From positions 1 through 64,000 of the forward strand of contig SUZP01000005.1 in the NCBI GenBank assembly GCA_015059865.1: 64,000 nucleotides of DNA. Direction: 5' to 3'. Source of the DNA: Rikenellaceae bacterium (GTDB lineage: Bacteria; Bacteroidota; Bacteroidia; Bacteroidales; Rikenellaceae). Shown here piece after piece: positions 2,426 through 59,171 of this stretch (positions within the stretch are counted from its first letter, which is position 1; each line of letters opens with the position of its first letter). Under the pieces are notes generated by a model. It had not been told where the DNA came from. It saw nothing but the letters and a program-made list of their open reading frames with translations, and did no database searches. Both the position numbers and the translations under genes were made by a program.

Positions 2426-2646
2426 AGAGGTATAACTTTGTTTCTAACTACAAATATATAAAATTAAATTCATAATTAAAAATTTCGTAATTAAAATTAT
2501 TTTGTTTGGGGAACTTCGAGGGTGGTCATGGCGCAGGCTTAATTGACAATTGACGAATTGATAATTGACAATTAATGGTAAAAACGATGAATCGTTTTTG
2601 ATTTTGTTACTCCTTTAACTACTCACTACTCACTAAAAAAAGGTTT

Positions 2647-4887: not shown

Positions 4888-5946
4888 ATGAAAAAATTAC
4901 TACTAATTCTCACGATGGCACTCTGCGTATCAACCGTATCGGCGCAGATATATCCAGAGGCAGGCGAAAATTGGAGAAATGCCAAGCCATCGAAGTACGA
5001 TTTCAACAACAAGAAAATCAAGTCTTTGAAGAAGTACATCGTAGACTCTATGAAGACAACAGGCTTGATGGTTATTGTCGGTGGCGAGTGCATCTACAAG
5101 TTTGGCAATGTAGAGCGTTTGAGCTACATCGCATCGTGCCGTAAGAGCGTTTTGGCTATGCTCTATGGCAAGTATGTCGAGAATGGCACCATCAATCTCA
5201 ACCAAACCATTGGCGAGCTTGGTATCACCGACCACGGAGGCTTGCTGCCAATAGAGAAGACGGCAACTGTGCGCCACCTTATTCAGGCGCGTTCGGGTGT
5301 CTATCGCCCATCGTCTAACCCCGGCAGTTCGTTGGACAACCCCGACCTCGTTCCAAAGCGAGGCTCGAAGAAGCCCGGCACATACCACCTCTACAACAAC
5401 TGGGACTTCAATGCTGCGGGTACTGTTTTCGAGAAGCTGACAGGCAAGAGCGTATATCAAACCTTAGAGGAGGATTTGGCTAAGCCTCTCGGTTTCCAAG
5501 ATTGGGACATCAACGCACAGCGTTATGGTGGAGACAAATCCAAGTCGATGCACCCTGCATACCACATCTACATCTCTACGCGCGATATGGCGCGCCTTGG
5601 CTACTTGATGTTGCGCAAAGGCGAGTGGGATGGCAAGCAAATAATCTCGAAGAAGTGGCACAAGGAGATGCTCACTAAGTGGACTCCTCGCAAGAAGATG
5701 AATCCAGCAGAGCAGCGCAAGGGCGAATTTGCTTATGGCTATATGTGGTGGTTGTATGACACCAAAGTTCCTGAGTTGAAGGGAGCCTACACTGCTCGTG
5801 GTGCTATGGGGCAATATATCACCGTCATCCCTCAATTGGATATGGTTATTGCACACAAGACTGACAGAGTCTATGGCCGCAAGACTTCGTATGCAAGTTA
5901 CAGAAGATTGATTGAGAAGATTATTGCAGCAAAACAATATCAATAG
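4888..5946 (+). CDS. Beta-lactamase-family serine hydrolase, secreted (paralog 1)
   Basis: Signal peptide, SxxK motif in IASCRKSVLAMLYGKYVENG. Confidence 0.9.
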   Translation: MKKLLLILTMALCVSTVSAQIYPEAGENWRNAKPSKYDFNNKKIKSLKKYIVDSMKTTGLMVIVGGECIYKFGNVERLSYIASCRKSVLAMLYGKYVENGTINLNQTIGELGITDHGGLLPIEKTATVRHLIQARSGVYRPSSNPGSSLDNPDLVPKRGSKKPGTYHLYNNWDFNAAGTVFEKLTGKSVYQTLEEDLAKPLGFQDWDINAQRYGGDKSKSMHPAYHIYISTRDMARLGYLMLRKGEWDGKQIISKKWHKEMLTKWTPRKKMNPAEQRKGEFAYGYMWWLYDTKVPELKGAYTARGAMGQYITVIPQLDMVIAHKTDRVYGRKTSYASYRRLIEKIIAAKQYQ

Positions 5947-7231: not shown

Positions 7232-7810
7232 ATGAAAAGTATCAAAGGAACTCGCACCGAGCAAAATCTACTCAAAGCATTCGCCGGAGAGTCGCAAGCT
7301 CGCAACCGCTACACATTTTTTGCCAAGCGCGCACGCAAGGAGGGATACGAGCAGATTGCTGCCGTATTTGACGAGACAGCCGCACAGGAGCAAGAGCACG
7401 CCGAGGTATTCTTCAAATTTCTCGAAGGAGGCAAGGCCGAGATATCCGAGGCTACATATCCTGCGGGGCGCATAGGCTCGACATCCGAGAACCTCTTAGC
7501 CGCAGCCGAGGGTGAACGCGAGGAGTGGGATGTACTCTACCCCACTTTTGCAACCATAGCCGAGGAGGAGGGTTTTCCCGAAATAGCATACGCCTTTCGT
7601 ATGGTATCGAGCGTGGAGGTGGAGCACGAAAATCGTTATCTCAAACTACTCTCTCGCATAACCGACGGCAACTTCTTCCACCGCGACAACGAGATATGGT
7701 GGCAGTGTCGCAACTGCGGTTTTGTTTGCAAGGCAAAAGATGCGCCACGCATCTGCCCTACCTGCCAACACAAACAATCCTACTTCGAGCCAAAACGAGA
7801 AAACTACTAA
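7232..7810 (+). CDS. rbr: Rubrerythrin
   Basis: GESQARNRYTFFAKRARKEG; C-terminal CRNCGF...CPTCQH rubredoxin-like site. Confidence 0.97.
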   Translation: MKSIKGTRTEQNLLKAFAGESQARNRYTFFAKRARKEGYEQIAAVFDETAAQEQEHAEVFFKFLEGGKAEISEATYPAGRIGSTSENLLAAAEGEREEWDVLYPTFATIAEEEGFPEIAYAFRMVSSVEVEHENRYLKLLSRITDGNFFHRDNEIWWQCRNCGFVCKAKDAPRICPTCQHKQSYFEPKRENY

Positions 7811-17184: not shown

Positions 17185-17289
17185 TTTGGGGTTTTAAGTA
17201 GCTGATTACCAAGTACTTAAAGCCGTTTACATAAAGCGTTGCTTTAATTGAGAATTGAGAATTAAGAATTAAGAATTAAAAAAGCAAAA

Positions 17290-17421
17290 AGCGCTCCCCA
17301 TAAAGCGAACGAGGTGAGCGCCGCCATCAAGGGCTTAAAGCCCGTCGCCATAAAGCAGTCGCAGACTGCGCCGCCATAATAGTTGCGCCGCGAAAACGCT
17401 CGGAGTCCGCAAAGCAGAAAA
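17290..17421 (+). repeat. Mini-hairpin array 1 with leader at 17383-17421
   Basis: CCATAAA-type linkers at 17298, 17324, 17348, 17374; palindromes GGGCTTAAAGCCC and GCAGTCGCAGACTGC; leader TTGCGCCGCGAAAACGCTCGGAGTCCGC. Confidence 0.75.
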
Positions 17422-17476: not shown

Positions 17477-20400
17477 ATGAAAAAAATTTACAAGATTTTC
17501 ATGGCAGTTGCAGCGGTTGCAGGCGTAACAGCTTGTACCACAGATGCAACTGAGGACCTCGGAGTAAATCTCAACGAAGGTCAGACAACTCTCACATTGT
17601 CGCTTGACGACACCCGTACTCAGCTCGGCGAAAAGGCTGACGGCGTCTACCCTCTCACTTGGGCTGCGGGCGATGTTATTTCGGTAAATGGCTCGGTATC
17701 AAATGCTCTTGCAGAAGATGAGGCTGGCGCAACAACCGCAACATTTAACTTCGAAAAAGGCTTTGGTAGTGCGCCTTATTTCATTGCTTACCCTGCAACT
17801 TCGACTAACAATCAGGTTGTTTTTGCGGCTGAGCAAACACATGTAAGCAGCACCACTTTCGGCAATGGTGCAGCTGTAATGTATGGCTACGCAACTGACC
17901 TTAGCAGCGTTAAGCTCAACCACTTGACTGGCGTATTGAAGATTGGCGTCGTTAGCGGAACAGCTGAGCCTGCATATATCAAGGAGGTGCGTATCTCGAC
18001 CGTAGACCGCAAGCCTATCGCAGGTGCGTTCAATGTTGATGCAGAGGGCAAACTCACTGCAACTGAGGGAGCAACCGAGGTTATTACCTACAAGGCAGCA
18101 GACGATGCAAGTATCATAGCACCAATGGGCACAGCAACAAGCGAAAATCCTAACTATATCTATGTAGTAGTTCCTGCTGGCACTTACGGTGAGTTGTTTG
18201 TAACTTTGGAGAGCGCAGATGGTGTGATGTACAAGACCATCACAACCGACAGCACTAAGCCGATTAATGCAGGCGCAGTTCGCGAGTTCTCGAACAACAT
18301 CGAGTTTGTTCCAACTGACGAGGCTGAGGTATTTGTAATCTCTAATTATGGTGATTTGTGTGATTACAAGGAGGCTGTTGAGAAGGGCTCAACTCTTGGC
18401 GCTGTTTTGGTAAATGATATTGAACTTCCTGCTAAGGGCGATGTGTTAATTGGCCAAGATTGGGCTTCAATCAACGCTCCTGAGTACGCTGCCGAGTTCA
18501 ATGGTAATGGCTACGCTATCAAGGGTTTGTATGCTCCATTGTTCGACACCGTAGCAGCTACTATCAAGGGTGTGCACTTGAAGGATGTAAAGATTGCGAA
18601 GGAGTACGCTTCGGCAAACACCGGTGCTTTGGTTAATACCTACACAGGTACAAGCATTACCCACTGCTCGGCTGAGGGAACAATTACTCTTACACGAGCA
18701 AATAGTGTTGTAAACAAGATTGGCGGTTTGGTTGGTACGGTATCGAACTTCACAACTGACTGGGAGATTAGCGACTGCGTAAACAACTGTGCTATCACTG
18801 TGGCTTTGACCAAAGACGAAACATCGCAGACAACTTTCGTTGGAGGTATTATGGGTGATTACTATATTGCTGCTGAGGATGCTGCTGCCACAACAGTAAC
18901 CCTCTCAAACAATACAAATAATAGCGCAATCAGCTTAACCGGTGAAACTGGTGCGATTGTTGGCGTAAGCGGTATCGCAGCTCGCTTGTACAGTTGTAAC
19001 CTTGTACTTACCGATTGTGCAAATATCGGTAGCGTATCTGCGGAGCTTAGCGCTTCTATCGAGTTCCATGTATCTGGTATTGTAGGAAGATATGTTGCTG
19101 GTTACAATTTAACGGCAACAAATTGCTACAACTCTGGTAAGATTAGTGCTAATATTACAGCCGCTAACACTACCACTGCATACTCTTCGGCAGGTGGATG
19201 CTTCGGCTATTTAGCTAATTCAGCAGGAGGTCTCTTGACTATCAACAATTGCGATAATAGCGCCAATATCGAGGTTGAAGCAACTACTTCGATAGCAAAC
19301 CAGCTCCATATCGGTGGCCTTGCAGGCTGTCTCTATTCTATTATGGATGTGCAAAACTGCGAAAATACAGGAGAGAAGGTATTGTTTAATGGCCAAGGCT
19401 TATCTCATCGTTTCAACTTAGGTGGTTTGGCTGGTCGTGTCGCTTTGAATAATAGTAGCGATACAACCAATGAAAATGGTCTGAATGTCATTAACTTCAA
19501 AACTTGTACAAATGCAGCCGATGTCTCTATGACAGATGGTGGAACAATATCCCACCAAGTCTTTGTTGGAGGTGTTATAGCATCTAGTTATGCTTTGTCT
19601 ACTCAGCGTGCAACATTTACCTATGACGATTTGGATAATAATGGAAATATTACGGTAAGTTCTAAGGATTGGACATACACGGGAGATAAAAGTAGTGGCG
19701 ATGCATTGGATGTTCCAAGATTGATGGTAGGAGGTGTTCTCGGTACAGATTGGATTGACGATTCATCATCAACAGGTTCAAATTACAGTTCTTTCTGTAT
19801 TACTAATTGTAACAATGGTGACGAGAAGAGCGTAAATACCAAGAAAATTTTGATTACAGGCGAGAAAAACTACTCTGTATCGGTCGGAGGTATTGTAGGT
19901 GTTCGTTCGTATGGTACTCCTAAGAGCAACGCGACTACATATCCATCAAAGATAGATGGTTGCAAGAACTATATGACCATCGAGCATAGTGCTACTACCA
20001 CTTGTCAGGATAATCTCTATCTTGGTGGAATCTGCGGTATGGCTTCGCATGTTCAACGATATCAACGAGTATGCTTCCACAACTCTACCAACTATGGCAA
20101 TATCAACGCGAATGCTGCGAATGTTACAGATAATATTAGTGTGTCGGGCGTTTTGGCGGTACAAAGAAACCATCAGCAGAGAAGCGCAAGTAATGGTAGA
20201 AAGCCTGCTGGTGTAACAATGGAGAACGTTTATAATAAGGGTACTATTAATGTTGGTGGCACAACCGGCTTTACTTGCACCAATCTTCGAGTTGGTGGTC
20301 TTGTTGGCGAGGCAGAGTTATTGGCATATGCTGTGAACAATAATAATAGTTATACCGTAAATAACAATCATTATATCCTTACAGATGTAGCCAATGTCGG

Positions 20401-20737
20401 TAATATCAATGTATCGAATGTAACAGGTACTCGTTATATCGGTGGTGCTCTCGGACAAGATGTAAGATTAGGAGGCTCTCGCACATACACTAATTTTAAA
20501 TCACATTGTACAATTACAGTGAGCGAGGGTTATAATGCTGGTATGCTTGCTGGTATGGAGCCTACAGGTAGTGTTAAATTCTCGAATTGTGAGGTAGGTG
20601 GTACCTTGGTTAAGGGTGCAACATCTACACTTATCGATGCTGCAAATGTTACACAGTATAGCTTTGGTGCTACTACTGCACCAAACGCTTTGTATGCAAG
20701 CGTAACATTCTTGGCAACACAACCAGTAGTGGAGTAA
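17477..20737 (+). CDS. Large surface lipoprotein, fimbrillin-like N-terminus and GLUG-like repeats
   Basis: Lipobox AGVTACTTDA; DDTRTQLGEKADGVYPLTWAAGDVISVNG; many GGLVG/GGIVG...C-N repeats; 1086 aa. Confidence 0.8.
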   Translation: MKKIYKIFMAVAAVAGVTACTTDATEDLGVNLNEGQTTLTLSLDDTRTQLGEKADGVYPLTWAAGDVISVNGSVSNALAEDEAGATTATFNFEKGFGSAPYFIAYPATSTNNQVVFAAEQTHVSSTTFGNGAAVMYGYATDLSSVKLNHLTGVLKIGVVSGTAEPAYIKEVRISTVDRKPIAGAFNVDAEGKLTATEGATEVITYKAADDASIIAPMGTATSENPNYIYVVVPAGTYGELFVTLESADGVMYKTITTDSTKPINAGAVREFSNNIEFVPTDEAEVFVISNYGDLCDYKEAVEKGSTLGAVLVNDIELPAKGDVLIGQDWASINAPEYAAEFNGNGYAIKGLYAPLFDTVAATIKGVHLKDVKIAKEYASANTGALVNTYTGTSITHCSAEGTITLTRANSVVNKIGGLVGTVSNFTTDWEISDCVNNCAITVALTKDETSQTTFVGGIMGDYYIAAEDAAATTVTLSNNTNNSAISLTGETGAIVGVSGIAARLYSCNLVLTDCANIGSVSAELSASIEFHVSGIVGRYVAGYNLTATNCYNSGKISANITAANTTTAYSSAGGCFGYLANSAGGLLTINNCDNSANIEVEATTSIANQLHIGGLAGCLYSIMDVQNCENTGEKVLFNGQGLSHRFNLGGLAGRVALNNSSDTTNENGLNVINFKTCTNAADVSMTDGGTISHQVFVGGVIASSYALSTQRATFTYDDLDNNGNITVSSKDWTYTGDKSSGDALDVPRLMVGGVLGTDWIDDSSSTGSNYSSFCITNCNNGDEKSVNTKKILITGEKNYSVSVGGIVGVRSYGTPKSNATTYPSKIDGCKNYMTIEHSATTTCQDNLYLGGICGMASHVQRYQRVCFHNSTNYGNINANAANVTDNISVSGVLAVQRNHQQRSASNGRKPAGVTMENVYNKGTINVGGTTGFTCTNLRVGGLVGEAELLAYAVNNNNSYTVNNNHYILTDVANVGNINVSNVTGTRYIGGALGQDVRLGGSRTYTNFKSHCTITVSEGYNAGMLAGMEPTGSVKFSNCEVGGTLVKGATSTLIDAANVTQYSFGATTAPNALYASVTFLATQPVVE

Positions 20738-20961: not shown

Positions 20962-21091
20962 TGGGGCCAAAAGGCCCCAAAAAGAATTAAGAATTAAGAA
21001 TTGAGAATTAAGAATTAAAAATTAAAAATTCCTTTAATTGTCAATTGTCAATTCGTCAATTGTCAATTAAAAAACTGCTCACTAAACAAAA

Positions 21092-24270: not shown

Positions 24271-24385
24271 GGAACTCCTACCCTTGTCAAGGCGCAAGTT
24301 TTACTGGGGGTTACTGGGGGCGGGCGTTCCGCCCTTTACTGGGGGCGCACCTGCGGTGCTTTACTGGGGAGCGCGGAGAGTTAAA
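24271..24385 (-). repeat. Mini-hairpin array 2 (degenerate, CCCCAGTAAA linker), leader at 24271-24297
   Basis: TTTACTGGGG linkers at 24300, 24335, 24360; palindromes GGGCGTTCCGCCC and GCACCTGCGGTGC; reverse-complement leader CTTGCGCCTTGACAAGGGTAGGAGTTCC. Confidence 0.65.
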
Positions 24386-24403
24386 GCTGTTTTAAACTAA
24401 TCC

Positions 24404-24607
24404 CCAAATAGTAAAATTGATTTTAAGTAGATGAGAGCAAGGCGCACAAGAAGCCCACTGCGCAGCATAATTTCCAAATAGTAAAATTGATTTTAAGGAG
24501 GCAAATACAAGGCGCACAAGAAACCCACTGCGCAGCATAGTAAACCTATGTGAGCAAGTGGGTTATCGCAGTGCAACGCAGTAGTTGCCCCTTAAAATCG
24601 ATTTTTA
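24404..24607 (-). repeat. Long inverted-repeat 3' element B with duplicated left half
   Basis: Arms 24482-24504 / 24585-24607; inner AACCCACT/AGTGGGTT; core GCGCAGCATAGTAAACCTATGTGAGC; left half duplicated with 70-bp period. Confidence 0.85.
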
Positions 24608-29836: not shown

Positions 29837-31738
29837 ATGAAACTATTTATTAACCTATTAATTTTCGCATTTACAATACACTCGGTGGCCATAGCACAAA
29901 CAACCACGCGCGTCGTTTGCGATGAGACTTGCAAGACCGAGTCGGGAGCAACAGCCGTCAAGGGCGATGGCTTTGCCGTTGTGTCGCCCGTAGGTCGCGG
30001 AACGGTCAAGATGATTGAGATGGCGCCTCGCCTTAACTCGCTCGATGGCAAAACGATTGCCATTGTCGGCGGTAGTTTTATGGCTCGTACTACCCACCCC
30101 GAACTAAAACGCCTCTTCGAGAAGCACTACCCTACTTGTCGTATTATTCTGCTCGATGAGATTGGCTCGGCAGGTGTTTATCCTGCGCCGGGCGTAACAC
30201 GCCGTTCAAAGGAGGAGTTTCAGGAGCGTTTGCGCTCGATGCGTGTCGATGCCGTTATTTCGGGTAACTGTGGTTGCGGACTCTGCACCCCGAAGGAGGT
30301 CGGCTCGTGCATCGCAGCCGAGTATATCGGCATTCCTGCCGTGGCTATTGCAGCACCTACATTTACCGAGCAGGTATTCTACACCTCGACCAATAATGGT
30401 GTCCCTGCTCCTCGCGTAGCAGAGTATCCGGGTGCATTTGCTTCGCACACCACCGAGGAGTTGATAAAAAACACGCGCGAGGTGTTATTTCCTCAAATCG
30501 TCAAGGCTCTGACCTCGCCAATTACCGCCGAGGAGTTGGAGCGTAGCGCAAAGAGCAACAAAGGCGATATTCGCGATGATATTTTCTACGGCACTTTGCA
30601 GGAGGTGAACAACCATTTCCAAGAGATGAATTGGTCTGATGGTCTGCCAATCGTACCGCCAACATTCGAGAAGGTTAGCGAGTTTTTGCGCTACACCGAC
30701 AAGCAATGGAACGAAACGGTTGCAGTACTCCCTGTGGCACATCGCAGCACCACGGTTTGGCATGTGGCTGTAAATGGTGTTATGGCTGGTTGCAAGCCCG
30801 AATATATGCCTATACTTATCGCTATGACAAAGGCTATCGGTGCCCCTTCGTTCCGCCGTACATTGGCAAGTACCCACGCGTGGGTGCCATACTCTTGGTT
30901 GAACGGTCCCGTTGCCCGACAGCTCGGCATCGACTGCGGTCAGGGCGAGATTAACGAGGAGGCAAATGTGGCGATAGGTCGCTTTATGAGCCTTGCGCTG
31001 ATGAACTTGGCTGGCTACTATATCAAGCAGAATCGTATGGGTACTTTCGGTTATCCGTTGCCTTGGTGCTTGGTTGAAGATGAGGTTGCTTGTCGTAGAA
31101 TTGGCTGGAAGCCTTACCACGCACGACTCGGATATCAGATGAACGACAACACCATCACGACCTCCTCTACTCTGCTTTGGGGTAATAATATGGCACCTTC
31201 AACCACCAACCCACAGAGGATTATGGAGTTGTTGGCGTGGGATATCACCGAGCGTTGTCAGTTTGCTCTCGGTAGTGGCAAGCAATTTACTTACCGCACC
31301 ATATTATTGACAGAGCCGATAGCGAAGAATTTGGCTACAAAGTATCGCACCCCATACGCACTCGAACAAGACCTTATCCGCACAGCTCGCCGTTCGCTCA
31401 AAGAGCGAGTATTCGCCAACTACTACGCCAATCCGGGCAGTAATCCTGAGGAGCGCCACCCAATTCGTAATTGGCGCGGACACCTCACTCGCACCGAAGG
31501 TGCTTCGATGACACCGACGCCCGTTTGGTACGACTCGCCCGAAGCGGAGATGATGACTATCCCTGCAATGAAGGAGGAGATGACCGCCTTTATTATCACG
31601 GGCGATTCGAGCCGCAACAAGGTACAGACAATGCCGGGTGGAGGCTTTGAGACGGTCTGCATAGAACTCCCTCACAATTGGAACAAACTGATGCAGGAGA
31701 AGGGCTATAAGCCGATTGAGGAGTACTATATCAAGTAG
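29837..31738 (+). CDS. Secreted two-domain protein: UGSC-like redox domain plus WSDGLPIVPP domain
   Basis: Signal peptide; DAVISGNCGCGLCTPKEVGSC resembles the UGSC motif region; NWSDGLPIVPPTFEKV ... VNGVMAGCKPEYMPILIA. Confidence 0.6.
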   Translation: MKLFINLLIFAFTIHSVAIAQTTTRVVCDETCKTESGATAVKGDGFAVVSPVGRGTVKMIEMAPRLNSLDGKTIAIVGGSFMARTTHPELKRLFEKHYPTCRIILLDEIGSAGVYPAPGVTRRSKEEFQERLRSMRVDAVISGNCGCGLCTPKEVGSCIAAEYIGIPAVAIAAPTFTEQVFYTSTNNGVPAPRVAEYPGAFASHTTEELIKNTREVLFPQIVKALTSPITAEELERSAKSNKGDIRDDIFYGTLQEVNNHFQEMNWSDGLPIVPPTFEKVSEFLRYTDKQWNETVAVLPVAHRSTTVWHVAVNGVMAGCKPEYMPILIAMTKAIGAPSFRRTLASTHAWVPYSWLNGPVARQLGIDCGQGEINEEANVAIGRFMSLALMNLAGYYIKQNRMGTFGYPLPWCLVEDEVACRRIGWKPYHARLGYQMNDNTITTSSTLLWGNNMAPSTTNPQRIMELLAWDITERCQFALGSGKQFTYRTILLTEPIAKNLATKYRTPYALEQDLIRTARRSLKERVFANYYANPGSNPEERHPIRNWRGHLTRTEGASMTPTPVWYDSPEAEMMTIPAMKEEMTAFIITGDSSRNKVQTMPGGGFETVCIELPHNWNKLMQEKGYKPIEEYYIK

Positions 31739-31809
31739 AATTGAGAATTGAGAATTGAGAATTGAGAATTGAGAATTAAGAATTGAGAATTGAGAATTGA
31801 AAATTGAGA
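31738..31809. repeat. Heptanucleotide tandem array, about 10 copies of AATTGAG/AATTAAG
   Basis: Directly readable GAATTGAGAATTGAG... Confidence 0.95.
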
Positions 31810-32029
31810 GGCGCGAGGTAAGGATAGCGGCGCCAACAAGTTGGCTTTATGGCGGCGGAAGCAGAGCTTCCTTTATAGCGGCGCAGCCTGACGACTGCTT
31901 TATAGTGCGCCATAGAGGGCTGAAAGCTAGACGCCATAGAACACCGCAGGTGTGACGCCATAGAGGGCGAAGCCCAACGATATAACCCTTTTGCGCCGTG
32001 ATGACGCTCGGAGTCCGCAAAACAAGAAA
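31805..32029. repeat. Mini-hairpin array 3 with central orientation switch, leader at 31991-32029
   Basis: TTTATRG linkers at 31846, 31872, 31899 then CGCCATAGA linkers at 31908, 31932, 31956; palindromes GCCAACAAGTTGGC, GGAAGCAGAGCTTCC, CACCGCAGGTG, GGGCGAAGCCC. Confidence 0.8.
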
Positions 32030-34406: not shown

Positions 34407-34470
34407 GGGGTGTTAGAGGGTATTAGAGGGTGTTAGAGGGTGTTAGGGGTGTTAGGGGTGTTAAGGGGAT
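34407..34470. repeat. Tandem GGGTGTTAGA microsatellite
   Basis: ggggtgttagagggtattagagggtgttagagggtgttaggggtgttagg. Confidence 0.9.
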
Positions 34471-34570
34471 AGGCAATTAAAAATTAAAACAACTCCTAAC
34501 CCCTATCTCCTATCTGCTAACTGCTCCGTAAAATTGGAATTTAAGTAGATGGTTGCAAGGCAAATACCCC

Positions 34571-34699
34571 AAAAAATCAGAGGTGATTGAGCTATTTTTG
34601 AGGCAAACAAGAAGCGGAGTCCGCAGCATACTTGTCGTATGTGAGGAACTCCGCTATCGCTGAGCGACTCAAAAAGAGCCAATCAGAATGATTTTTTTA
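34571..34699 (-). repeat. Long inverted-repeat 3' element C
   Basis: Arms TGATTGAGCTATTTTTGAG / CTCAAAAAGAGCCAATCA; core CGGAGTCCGCAGCATACTTGTCGTATGTGAGGAACTCCG. Confidence 0.85.
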
Positions 34700-36616: not shown

Positions 36617-36844
36617 AGTTGTAATTTTTTTATTTGTTTATTAAATTTTGTTCTGTTTTGTTTTCGCTTTTTTGTAGAGCAAACCCCTTGCCAAAGCCGT
36701 TTTTCGTGAAAATTTGTAAAATATCTGCCAAAAATGAGGTTTCGCGCGACAAATATGTGACAAAATGGCAGTATTATTGAGAATTGACAGTTGACAATTG
36801 ACAATTGACAATTATTCTTTGGCTTTTAGCCATTAACCATTGGC

Positions 36845-37169
36845 TGCATTTGCCCACAAAAAAATCAGAGATGATTGAGGGAATTTTGCGCCAAACAAAA
36901 AAAACGAGTCAGCAGCATACTGCACAGCTACTAAAATTGGAATTTAAGCAGATGGTTGCATTTGCCCACAAAAAAATCAGAGATGATTGAGGGAATTTTG
37001 CGCCAAACAAAAAAACGAGTCAGCAGCATACTGCACAGCTACTAAAATTGGAATTTAAGCAGATGGTTGCAAGGCAAACAAGGAGCCGAGTGCGCAGCAT
37101 ACTAAGGCGTATGTGAGCAACTCGGCTACCGAAGTTTAACGCAGCAAACGCTGCTTAAAAACAATTTTA
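36845..37169 (-). repeat. Long inverted-repeat 3' element D with duplicated left half
   Basis: Arms 37043-37062 / 37151-37169; AGCCGAGT/ACTCGGCT; core GCGCAGCATACTAAGGCGTATGTGAGC; preceding tandem copies with 111-112 bp period. Confidence 0.85.
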
Positions 37170-43778: not shown

Positions 43779-43795
43779 TAGCGATGAGCTAAATT

Positions 43796-43892
43796 AAGAA
43801 TTAAAAATTAAAAATTAAAAATTAAAAATTGAGAATTAAAAATTAAAAATTCCTTTAATTATCAATTGTCAATTATCAATTGTCAATTTGAA
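43796..43892. repeat. Heptanucleotide-type tandem repeats (AATTAAA/AATTGTC variants)
   Basis: attaaaaattaaaaattaaaaatt ... caattgtcaattatcaattgtcaatt. Confidence 0.9.
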
Positions 43893-49073: not shown

Positions 49074-49184
49074 AGTTGATTAGGCTATTTTTTTGCCAAG
49101 CAAGGCGACAAATCCGCAGCATAGTCGACCTATGTGAGGAATTTGGCGACCGCAGGTTGGTGAAAAAAGAGTCAATCAAAACTA
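49074..49184 (-). repeat. Long inverted-repeat 3' element E
   Basis: Arms AGTTGATTAGGCTATTTTTTTGCCAA / TTGGTGAAAAAAGAGTCAATCAAAACT; core AAATCCGCAGCATAGTCGACCTATGTGAGGAATTT. Confidence 0.85.
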
Positions 49185-51035: not shown

Positions 51036-51151
51036 ATTATCTTTGTAGGGGTTGTTAGAGGTTATTAAGGGATATTAGAGGTTATTAGTGTTTCTCTTTT
51101 TCACTAATTGCCGCTAACTACCGCTAACCACCGCTAATTGCCGCTATTAAA

Positions 51152-51880
51152 CTAATTCTTTCTAATTTCCGCCAAAGCACTTGTCATCATCTCCTGCACC
51201 TCCTTTGCCATCTCCGCAGGCTCGGTCGCTGCAACCCTCTCTGCCGAGATTGGAGGTAACACCTTCACCGTAAGTCGATGCTTCCAATTGAACCAATAGC
51301 TCTTTTTCTTAAAAATGTTGCGTGTGCCGTCAAGCACCACAGGCAAAATCTCCACACCAGCCTCCTTTGCCAAGGCAAATGCGCCCTGCTTGAAGCGGTG
51401 TATCTCGCCATCTTTCGAACGAGTACCCTCAGGGAAAATCGCAATCGAAGCTCCACGCGATATCCACATCTTGCCATCGTTCACAACCTTCGCCATAGCC
51501 TCCGCAGCACGACCTCGCTGGATAGGAATATCGCCGTGCGCAATCAACAACGGACCGATGTATGGGATACGGAACACCTCCTGCTTCGACACCCAACGGA
51601 AGTTCAAAGGGAGGAAGTAGAGCGAGATGATATCCGCCATGCTCTGGTGGTTGAGCGTGATGACATACGACTTGTTCGGGTCGATATGCTCCAAGCCCTC
51701 GACCTCCTGTTTCCAAGTTGGTGGCACCTTCCAGAAGAACATACAAATCATCTTCGAGCACCAATGTACCGCCTTACGAGCCTTGTCGAAGGGGTAACAA
51801 ACTGCAAGCACAATCCACGACACGACAAACCAAAAGGTCAGTTCCACGAGGATATAAAGTGCAAAAAGTAGTGTAAACAT
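51152..51880 (-). CDS. plsC: 1-acyl-sn-glycerol-3-phosphate acyltransferase
   Basis: LNHQSMADI; FPEGTRSKDGE. Confidence 0.92.
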   Translation of the reverse strand: MFTLLFALYILVELTFWFVVSWIVLAVCYPFDKARKAVHWCSKMICMFFWKVPPTWKQEVEGLEHIDPNKSYVITLNHQSMADIISLYFLPLNFRWVSKQEVFRIPYIGPLLIAHGDIPIQRGRAAEAMAKVVNDGKMWISRGASIAIFPEGTRSKDGEIHRFKQGAFALAKEAGVEILPVVLDGTRNIFKKKSYWFNWKHRLTVKVLPPISAERVAATEPAEMAKEVQEMMTSALAEIRKN

Positions 51881-51899: not shown

Positions 51900-52025
51900 T
51901 TTTCCGAACTCCAAGAGTAGTCAAGGCGCAAGCGTTTATGACGGCGCAGTCTGCGACTGCTTTATAGCGGCGGGCTTTCAGCCCTTTATGGCGTCAGGCT
52001 TTCTGCCTTCTATGGCGCGCTTTAA
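51900..52025 (-). repeat. Mini-hairpin array 4, leader at 51900-51932
   Basis: TTTATRR linkers at 51935, 51961, 51985 plus 52009 (TCTATGG); palindromes GCAGTCTGCGACTGC, GGGCTTTCAGCCC, AGGCTTTCTGCCT. Confidence 0.8.
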
Positions 52026-53000: not shown

Positions 53001-53113
53001 AATTCAAAATTCAAAATTCAAAATGCAAAAGCCAAATAAATAAAAAAATACGATTAATTGTCAATTGTCAATTCGTCAATTGTCAATTGTCAATTTGAAA
53101 ACTCCGTTTTCCA

Positions 53114-54842: not shown

Positions 54843-55610
54843 CTATTCATTTACAATCTGTTCGGGAGTTATGCGCAGTGCATCCATCGCCGCATCATCA
54901 TCCTCGATACCGAGATTTGCGACATACCAGCCATAGCCTATGCCCGCCAACGCAGCCAGCAGAATAATCACCGCCACAACCATCACAAAATCGACCTTCT
55001 TGCGCGGTTTGACTGGTTTTCTATGTGCAGGCGCAGAGGCGTTAGAGGTGTTAGAGGCGTTAGAGGCGTTAGAGGCGTTAGAGGTAATTTCGCATTCTGC
55101 ATTTTGCTTTTCACATTCTGCATTTTGCATTAACCCCTCTTTCGAGGGCTTTTCCTCCTCGCGGCCCGGCATAGTGTGCAAGCACCCTCTGCCCTCGCTC
55201 CGCAGCGTCGGTTCTGCATTTCTCTCGTCTCTCGTCTCTCGTCTCTCGTCTTGCTTTGGAATATACGGTGTCTGCTTTGGCAGTTCAACCTGCTCAACGG
55301 GTGGATAGAGTCGCAGCACCTTTGTCGAAGGCTCGATGCGCAGTGTTCCCACCTCGCCCAAGCGGCAGTAGCCATACTGCTCCAACTCGTGACGCACCTC
55401 AAATATGAAGCGGTCTATTGACACCGCAGCCTCCATCTCGCTAAGTCCTTTGGCGCGGAGTAGTGATGCAAGAACGCCATCATCGGTATTCAGCAAATCA
55501 GAGAATAGTCGTTCGCCCGTCTCCTTCACTACAAAAGCTCCGAAGGCAGGCACAACCAATCTGCGATTACTACGCAGATGCTCTGCTATAACCTCAATAA
55601 CGATACTCAT
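54843..55610 (-). CDS. HU-like (CCDC81-like) DNA-binding domain protein with repeat-rich linker and TM segment
   Basis: IAEHLRSNRRLVVPAFGAFVVKETGE; C-terminal TM VDFVMVVAVIILLAALAGIGYG; linker ASNASNASNTSNAS. Confidence 0.75.
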   Translation of the reverse strand: MSIVIEVIAEHLRSNRRLVVPAFGAFVVKETGERLFSDLLNTDDGVLASLLRAKGLSEMEAAVSIDRFIFEVRHELEQYGYCRLGEVGTLRIEPSTKVLRLYPPVEQVELPKQTPYIPKQDERRETRDERNAEPTLRSEGRGCLHTMPGREEEKPSKEGLMQNAECEKQNAECEITSNASNASNASNTSNASAPAHRKPVKPRKKVDFVMVVAVIILLAALAGIGYGWYVANLGIEDDDAAMDALRITPEQIVNE

Positions 55611-59043: not shown

Positions 59044-59130
59044 AATTGATAATTGACAATTGACAATTGACAATTAAAGGTAATTTCTCAATTCTCAATT
59101 CTCAATTCTTAATTCTTAATTTTTAATTTT
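59044..59130. repeat. Heptanucleotide-type tandem repeats
   Basis: aattgacaattgacaattgacaatt ... tctcaattctcaattctcaattctt. Confidence 0.9.
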
Positions 59131-59171
59131 CGGTTGAGAGCTAAATTGACACTTACTTAAATAAAAATAGT

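Follow-up and report, generated by a model that had tools for sequence, protein, structure and literature searches.

A two-ended modular intergenic repeat with variable interiors in Alistipes-like bacteria of the ruminant gut

Copies of the element and neighbouring genes

The window, i.e. the whole 64-kb stretch of DNA that was analysed, contains several copies of a short repeat next to genes for a 1086-aa lipoprotein (17477-20737), RplM (PF00572), a PlsC-like acyltransferase (PF01553) and an Ig-like Big_2 protein (PF02368). These gene identities agree with the first-pass annotation, and the four sequences quoted there were all found where it had placed them. Element 1 lies on the forward strand and begins with a head (GCGCTCCCC from 17291), which is followed by hairpin-unit filler (17291-17382, units at 17325 and 17349) and by a tail at 17383-17408. 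This tail is the core of the previously reported leader, has one mismatch to the pattern given for it, and ends 68 nt before the lipoprotein start (17477). Element 2 is on the reverse strand, with its head (GCGC 24374-24371) and hairpin-unit filler at 24298-24374 and its tail at 24272-24297, facing rplM (start 24134). Element 3, on the forward strand between two convergent genes, consists of a head-like GCGCC (31907) with hairpin-unit filler (31907-31990) and a tail (31991-32016) that matches the reported pattern exactly. In the case of element 4 (reverse strand), the head (GCGC 52020-52017) and hairpin-unit filler occupy 51932-52020, and 25 nt separate the tail (51906-51931) from the plsC-like start at 51880. 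The fifth copy is a tail only (CTGCGCCATGACCACCCTCGAAGTTC, 2511-2536, reverse strand), with no head and no array, beside AATTGTC repeats. C-rich short-unit arrays with neither head nor tail (CCCCTAACA, CCTCTAACG etc.) were found at 34408-34468, 51041-51081 and 55046-55084, all on the reverse strand.

In some elements, units of the opposite orientation continue beyond the head, so that the whole forms an extended inverted structure of which just one side ends in a tail. Such units are found to the left of element 3 (31826-31906, reverse strand, unit at 31857), where the far end has no tail, and also at L031 (near 7450-7554), L037, L040 and L089.

Two other types of intergenic repeat were observed. 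Heptamer tandem arrays (AATTGAG/AATTAAG/AATTGAC; elsewhere GACGAGA, GGAAAAC and AGTGAGT) are frequent and in many cases lie beside the element. They occupy 17246-17289, 20971-21068, 31732-31817, 43792-43889, 53001-53088 and 59044-59131 of the window and are present at many related loci as well. A second dispersed repeat, composed of a CATACTT...AAGTATG-like hairpin and TAAAATTGRNTTTAAG, is located at 24398-24607, 34529-34650, 36841-37099 and 49114-49140, and numerous matches to its part near 24483-24607 are present in related genomes.

The tail motif

The reported leader core is a 26-bp motif, TTGCGCCKTGAYNASNNTNGGAGTYC, which forms the tail, or right terminus, of a short repeat element. When up to 3 mismatches to the reported pattern were allowed, 5 matches were found in the window and none in 100 dinucleotide shuffles of it, and the conserved sequence noticed in the first-pass annotation is thus real and non-random. 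At the same threshold its own genome (G000, 1.72 Mb) contained 35 matches, compared with 0 for a reversed control, and a looser tail pattern gave 41, which is a lower bound.

An alignment of 174 tail copies showed that conservation jumps at the initial T of TTGCGCC and falls past GGAGTYC, and the G000 copies alone gave the same result; because a similar pattern had been used to pick the copies, the profile is somewhat sharper than it would otherwise be. Of the approximately 30-40 bp originally described, the conserved core is therefore 26 bp long (17383-17408), with a sharp left edge, and the A-rich stretch on its 3' side is only weakly conserved. A similar GAAAACTAAAAA precedes plsC even in species without the element.

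No known structured RNA was found when the window was searched against Rfam at gathering scores. We also considered the tail as coding sequence (peptide CALTTLGV). However, the third positions of TGC, GCC and GGA are essentially fixed, which argues against it; in the frame TGC GCC KTG ACN ASN NTN GGA GTY some third positions do vary, and variation is not concentrated at the synonymous ones. A hairpin within the tail was rejected as well, as the coupled positions 12/14/16/18 are not complementary and reflect sequence classes rather than pairing. Single tails folded no better than shuffles. Given these two results, we consider recognition of the tail in duplex form more likely than recognition of a hairpin.

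Head, filler and overall architecture

The reported leader is the conserved right terminus of a non-coding, two-ended, modular interspersed repeat of about 70-190 bp. Each element consists of a head, GCGC(A/T)CCC, followed by C-rich tandem filler with a length of 25-160 bp and the 26-bp tail. The head was present upstream of 163 of 180 tails, at a distance of 25-163 nt, with preferred spacings of 43-47, 61, 75-76 and 92 nt. Among the 14 tails listed without a head, several show a divergent one, e.g. GCGTTCCC or GCGCCACC. Conversely, a tail was present within 230 nt of 59 of the 64 extended heads, a figure biased by the fact that the loci were fetched for containing tails; four of the five remaining heads resemble coding noise and one is a genuine tail-less copy. 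Polarity had been deduced from one-sided conservation. The tail is indeed a polar end of the element, but the head is conserved at the opposite end, and the conservation is therefore not one-sided.

Two types of filler were distinguished. The first is built of hairpin units such as CCCCAGTAAAG-GGCG-GAA-CGCC and the second of 8-10-bp units such as CCCTTAATAG, CTCCTTAAA, CCCCTATTA, CTAACGACC and ATCCTATCAA. By automatic classification, hairpin units were found in 79 of 162 bodies and none was recognised in the other 83. As about half of the bodies have no hairpin units, the element is defined by its ends and not by hairpins. The proposed tie of the leader to hairpin arrays is not upheld by these counts, and some tails have no array while some arrays have no tail. 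Judged by the refuting condition set in the first-pass annotation, a strict association of leader and hairpin array breaks down in a minority of cases, whereas the link between head and tail holds. A separate automatic search for hairpin units was swamped by noise from coding sequences and missed some tails, and it served for individual examples only.

On the head-to-tail strand the filler contains 35 % C and 17 % G (35 % and 11 % in hairpin-free bodies), C exceeds G in 158 of 162 bodies, and C-runs recur every 8-10 nt. Whole elements also occur in tandem. Folded as single-stranded DNA, hairpin-containing elements were more stable than shuffles (z -2.3 and -3.9), and one hairpin-free element was not structured.

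Distribution across genomes

With a sequence-only tail model, 13 of the 180 genus genomes gave matches, and the other 167 had none. At least 42 tail copies each were present in G000, G005, G072, G085, G160 and G162, followed by G093 (40 copies) and G063 (21 copies), while G073, G083, G097 (weak), G173 and G175 had one or two matches. High copy number is thus confined to about eight Alistipes/Rikenellaceae metagenome-assembled genomes (MAGs). The carriers are incomplete MAGs and all of these copy numbers are lower bounds. Among the genomes compared, plsC identity, which is not a tree, places the carriers nearest to the window genome.

In the named genome collection, the matches listed belong to Alistipes/Rikenellaceae MAGs, of ruminant-gut source wherever a source is given (SIG168, SIG180, SIG186, RGIG5255, RGIG5438, RGIG6368, RGIG9004, RGIG9445 and RGIG9899). 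One Chryseolinea match among those listed was inside a long ORF and was taken as chance. No tail match was found in the phage and plasmid collections. In IMG/VR a single contig, L242 (IMGVR_UViG_3300024269_004012), contains the element, at 5870-5895 on the reverse strand, beside a lipoprotein paralogue 83 % identical to that of the window; this contig of a viral collection may be a mislabelled bacterial one. The repeat family appears to be undescribed in uncultured ruminant-gut Alistipes-like bacteria. A search of full-text literature on Alistipes intergenic repeats turned up a Porphyromonas paper alone, although as evidence of novelty this is weak.

Genomic context

For orientation counts the loci were collapsed to 120 distinct intergenic sites, with genes defined by simple ORF calls. 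The element reads along both neighbouring genes at 46 sites and against both at 28 (p about 0.05 for this codirectional comparison), and it lies between convergent genes at 35 and divergent genes at 11. It reads along the upstream gene at 81 of the 120 sites. These mixed orientations indicate that the element is not a fixed 5'-leader and has a weak preference to follow the upstream gene. In the proteins encoded beside the elements (134 were scanned), 164 Pfam families were recognised, none with more than 3 members, and no transposase or integrase was seen among the 25 families listed of the 164.

G000 contains eight lipoprotein genes, each with an element just upstream (L004, L011, L015, L017, L022, L026, L027 and L028). 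They comprise the 1086-aa lipoprotein gene of the window and seven paralogues, which are 78-85 % identical in roughly the N-terminal 200 residues. As these eight copies share their flanks as paralogues, they are not independent.

Filled, empty and swapped sites

Most loci were selected by their tail, and orthology was judged from flanking DNA. Presence and absence of the element at orthologous sites was observed at rplM, plsC, L025, L010 and L023. Upstream of rplM the element is absent in G005, G072, G063, G073 and G083. The plsC slot is empty in G093, G085, G073 and G083, and it holds hairpin units in G000 and a different array in G005. At L025, the G000 insert consists of heptamer repeats plus the element, where four species have a short spacer; since the heptamer repeats are part of the insert, its edges do not fall cleanly at head and tail. 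An automatic flank-based survey gave 40 filled and 44 absent comparisons, which are non-independent and biased toward filled sites, and some orthologous sites held the element in the opposite orientation. Among the genomes compared, no insertion event was seen directly, as all are incomplete MAGs.

The interior changes fast. At L161/L230 (G000, G072) the tail and downstream flank are near-identical and the filler is unrelated, and at L012 and L030 both filler and tail differ in the same slot. L108 and L036 differ by three units and are otherwise identical. Among the eight lipoprotein-linked elements the halves of the filler are shuffled; for example, the body of L017 is a mosaic whose left half is that of L026/L028 and whose right half is that of L004/L027. 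L091 and L034 have the same body and flanks and tail cores of different classes (GTGACAAGGGTA vs TTGACCACGCTC), as if the core had been swapped as a block. For 96 of 146 elements the nearest body was in the same genome, compared with 22 expected.

Mode of spread

The element is probably a non-autonomous BOX/MITE-like repeat that is spread in trans through its two ends. A candidate enzyme would act on head and tail to spread copies, and slippage, together with recombination among the copies, would afterwards remodel the filler; this remodelling would keep the filler genome-specific. Head-tail linkage, multi-copy dispersal among related species, intergenic placement, presence/absence at sites and the fast-changing interior all point to this explanation. 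The mobility proposed in the first-pass annotation is accordingly plausible in view of the patchy, multi-copy occurrence, the presence/absence sites and the tandem whole elements, but a co-occurring transposase or integrase, which it had suggested looking for, was not supported: no flanking family recurred, and Y1 transposases (RAYT, PF01797) were absent from all 18 genomes searched, with a positive control in 5 known genomes. No reverse transcriptase was found in five closely related multi-copy carriers (G160 and G162 were outside this search), and retro-copying was rejected for these five main carriers. A Y2/IS91 search gave no match and was not informative, as its control was silent as well. 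Shared k-mers of the flanks were only moderately above those of shuffled pairings and had no fixed register, and no target-site duplication was therefore recognised. Inverted similarity between the ends is weak: the head GCGCACTCC and GCGAACTCC (the reverse complement of GGAGTTCGC) agree at 8 of 9 positions in the best head variant, but the GCGC of the head is fixed and the outer positions of the tail are not.

The main rival is that no dedicated enzyme exists and that the family has spread and diversified through recombination (homologous or illegitimate), gene conversion and segmental duplication (e.g. with the lipoprotein paralogues), while the arrays were built by slippage. The eight paralogues that carry the element with shared flanks, the mosaic L017, the genome-specific filler, the tail core exchanged between L091 and L034 with body and flanks kept, and the failure of the Y1 and reverse transcriptase searches to find a mobilising enzyme are all in line with it. 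However, most copies lie beside unrelated genes, so that gene duplication does not explain their dispersal, and ends of only 8 bp (head) and 26 bp (tail) give little homology for general recombination; we consider this origin possible and rather unlikely. It is unlikely that the ends serve as a cassette frame, in which an enzyme recognising the 8-bp head and 26-bp tail would swap tandem-array cargo between copies at fixed sites. The ends would then persist and the interior, sometimes with the tail core, would be swapped independently of new insertion.

Three further explanations were considered. A host module under selection, in which the C-rich, G-poor filler would, as RNA, be a Rho-utilisation site (Rho-dependent terminator) that follows the upstream gene, or the tail would bind a host protein, would fit the filler composition with its regularly spaced C-runs (Rho binds spaced YC dinucleotides) and the excess of sites read along the upstream gene. 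The orientation bias is weak, however, with 11 divergent and 28 antisense sites, occupancy differs between close species and 167 of the 180 genus genomes have no match, which makes a host module quite improbable. The first-pass annotation had proposed that array growth might start at the leader, which would then resemble a CRISPR leader. Each hairpin array of the window does bear the tail at one end and unit number does vary, but the same motif ends arrays of unrelated units and occurs with no array at all, the other end is conserved too and no neighbouring gene recurs; the proposal is very doubtful for a motif common to elements with unrelated internal repeats. A REP-like element moved by a RAYT through single-stranded hairpins would be consistent with the folding of hairpin-containing elements beyond shuffles. 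It is largely refuted and hardly tenable, since PF01797 is lacking in the 18 genomes with the control working, about half of the bodies have no hairpin units, the one such element that was folded was unstructured, and the tail was no better than shuffles.

The way in which the family evolves is unusual, with constant ends and interchangeable interiors that are alike within a genome. The recognising protein could be sought with the 26-bp tail as bait, and at the presence/absence sites mobility can be put to the test. In carrier genomes, hairpin arrays should not be taken as CRISPR-like or as independent features.

Comparison with known repeat families

A CRISPR leader-array was rejected, as the arrays consist of head-to-tail short units or hairpins and there are no unique spacers between identical repeats. 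REP sequences and the GTAG and CGTC palindromes associated with RAYTs are small, intergenic, present in many copies and presumed to be mobilised in trans (PMC3733652). The element differs from them in that hairpins are optional (79 of 162 bodies) and in that a Y1 transposase is absent from the 18 genomes searched. With classical MITEs of the DDE type it shares presence/absence at orthologous sites, but it does not qualify as one of them, since no target-site duplication was found, and inverted repeats are doubtful.

The BrickBuilt MITE of Porphyromonas gingivalis has about 20 copies with a leader, 23-nt repeats and a tail (PMC4596501). Its leader and tail segments are long and it has IS5-like terminal inverted repeats (PMC4596501). 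Both repeats occur in Bacteroidales, are intergenic, follow the leader-tandem repeats-tail plan and are limited to close relatives. However, the ends of the present element are only 8 and 26 bp with no good inverted repeats, and its filler varies, in contrast to the one 23-nt family of BrickBuilt.

BOX of Streptococcus pneumoniae and S. suis is a modular intergenic repeat, boxA-(boxB)n-boxC, with tens of copies (PMC3049150). It is patchy in related species and interpreted as non-autonomous mobile DNA, its boxB is one family, and terminal inverted repeats (TIR) and target-site duplications (TSD) have been reported (PMC3049150). The two repeats are alike in having two constant end modules, a variable number of tandem internal modules, intergenic location, patchy occurrence and tens of copies. 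They differ in sequence and phylum, and neither good TIR nor TSD were found here. The internal modules of the present element are unrelated between copies (a hairpin or several 8-10-bp units), and without homologous modules it is not a member of the BOX family. By this analogy, the element would work like a BOX-type modular repeat with interchangeable, unrelated interiors, a likeness of architecture and not of membership.
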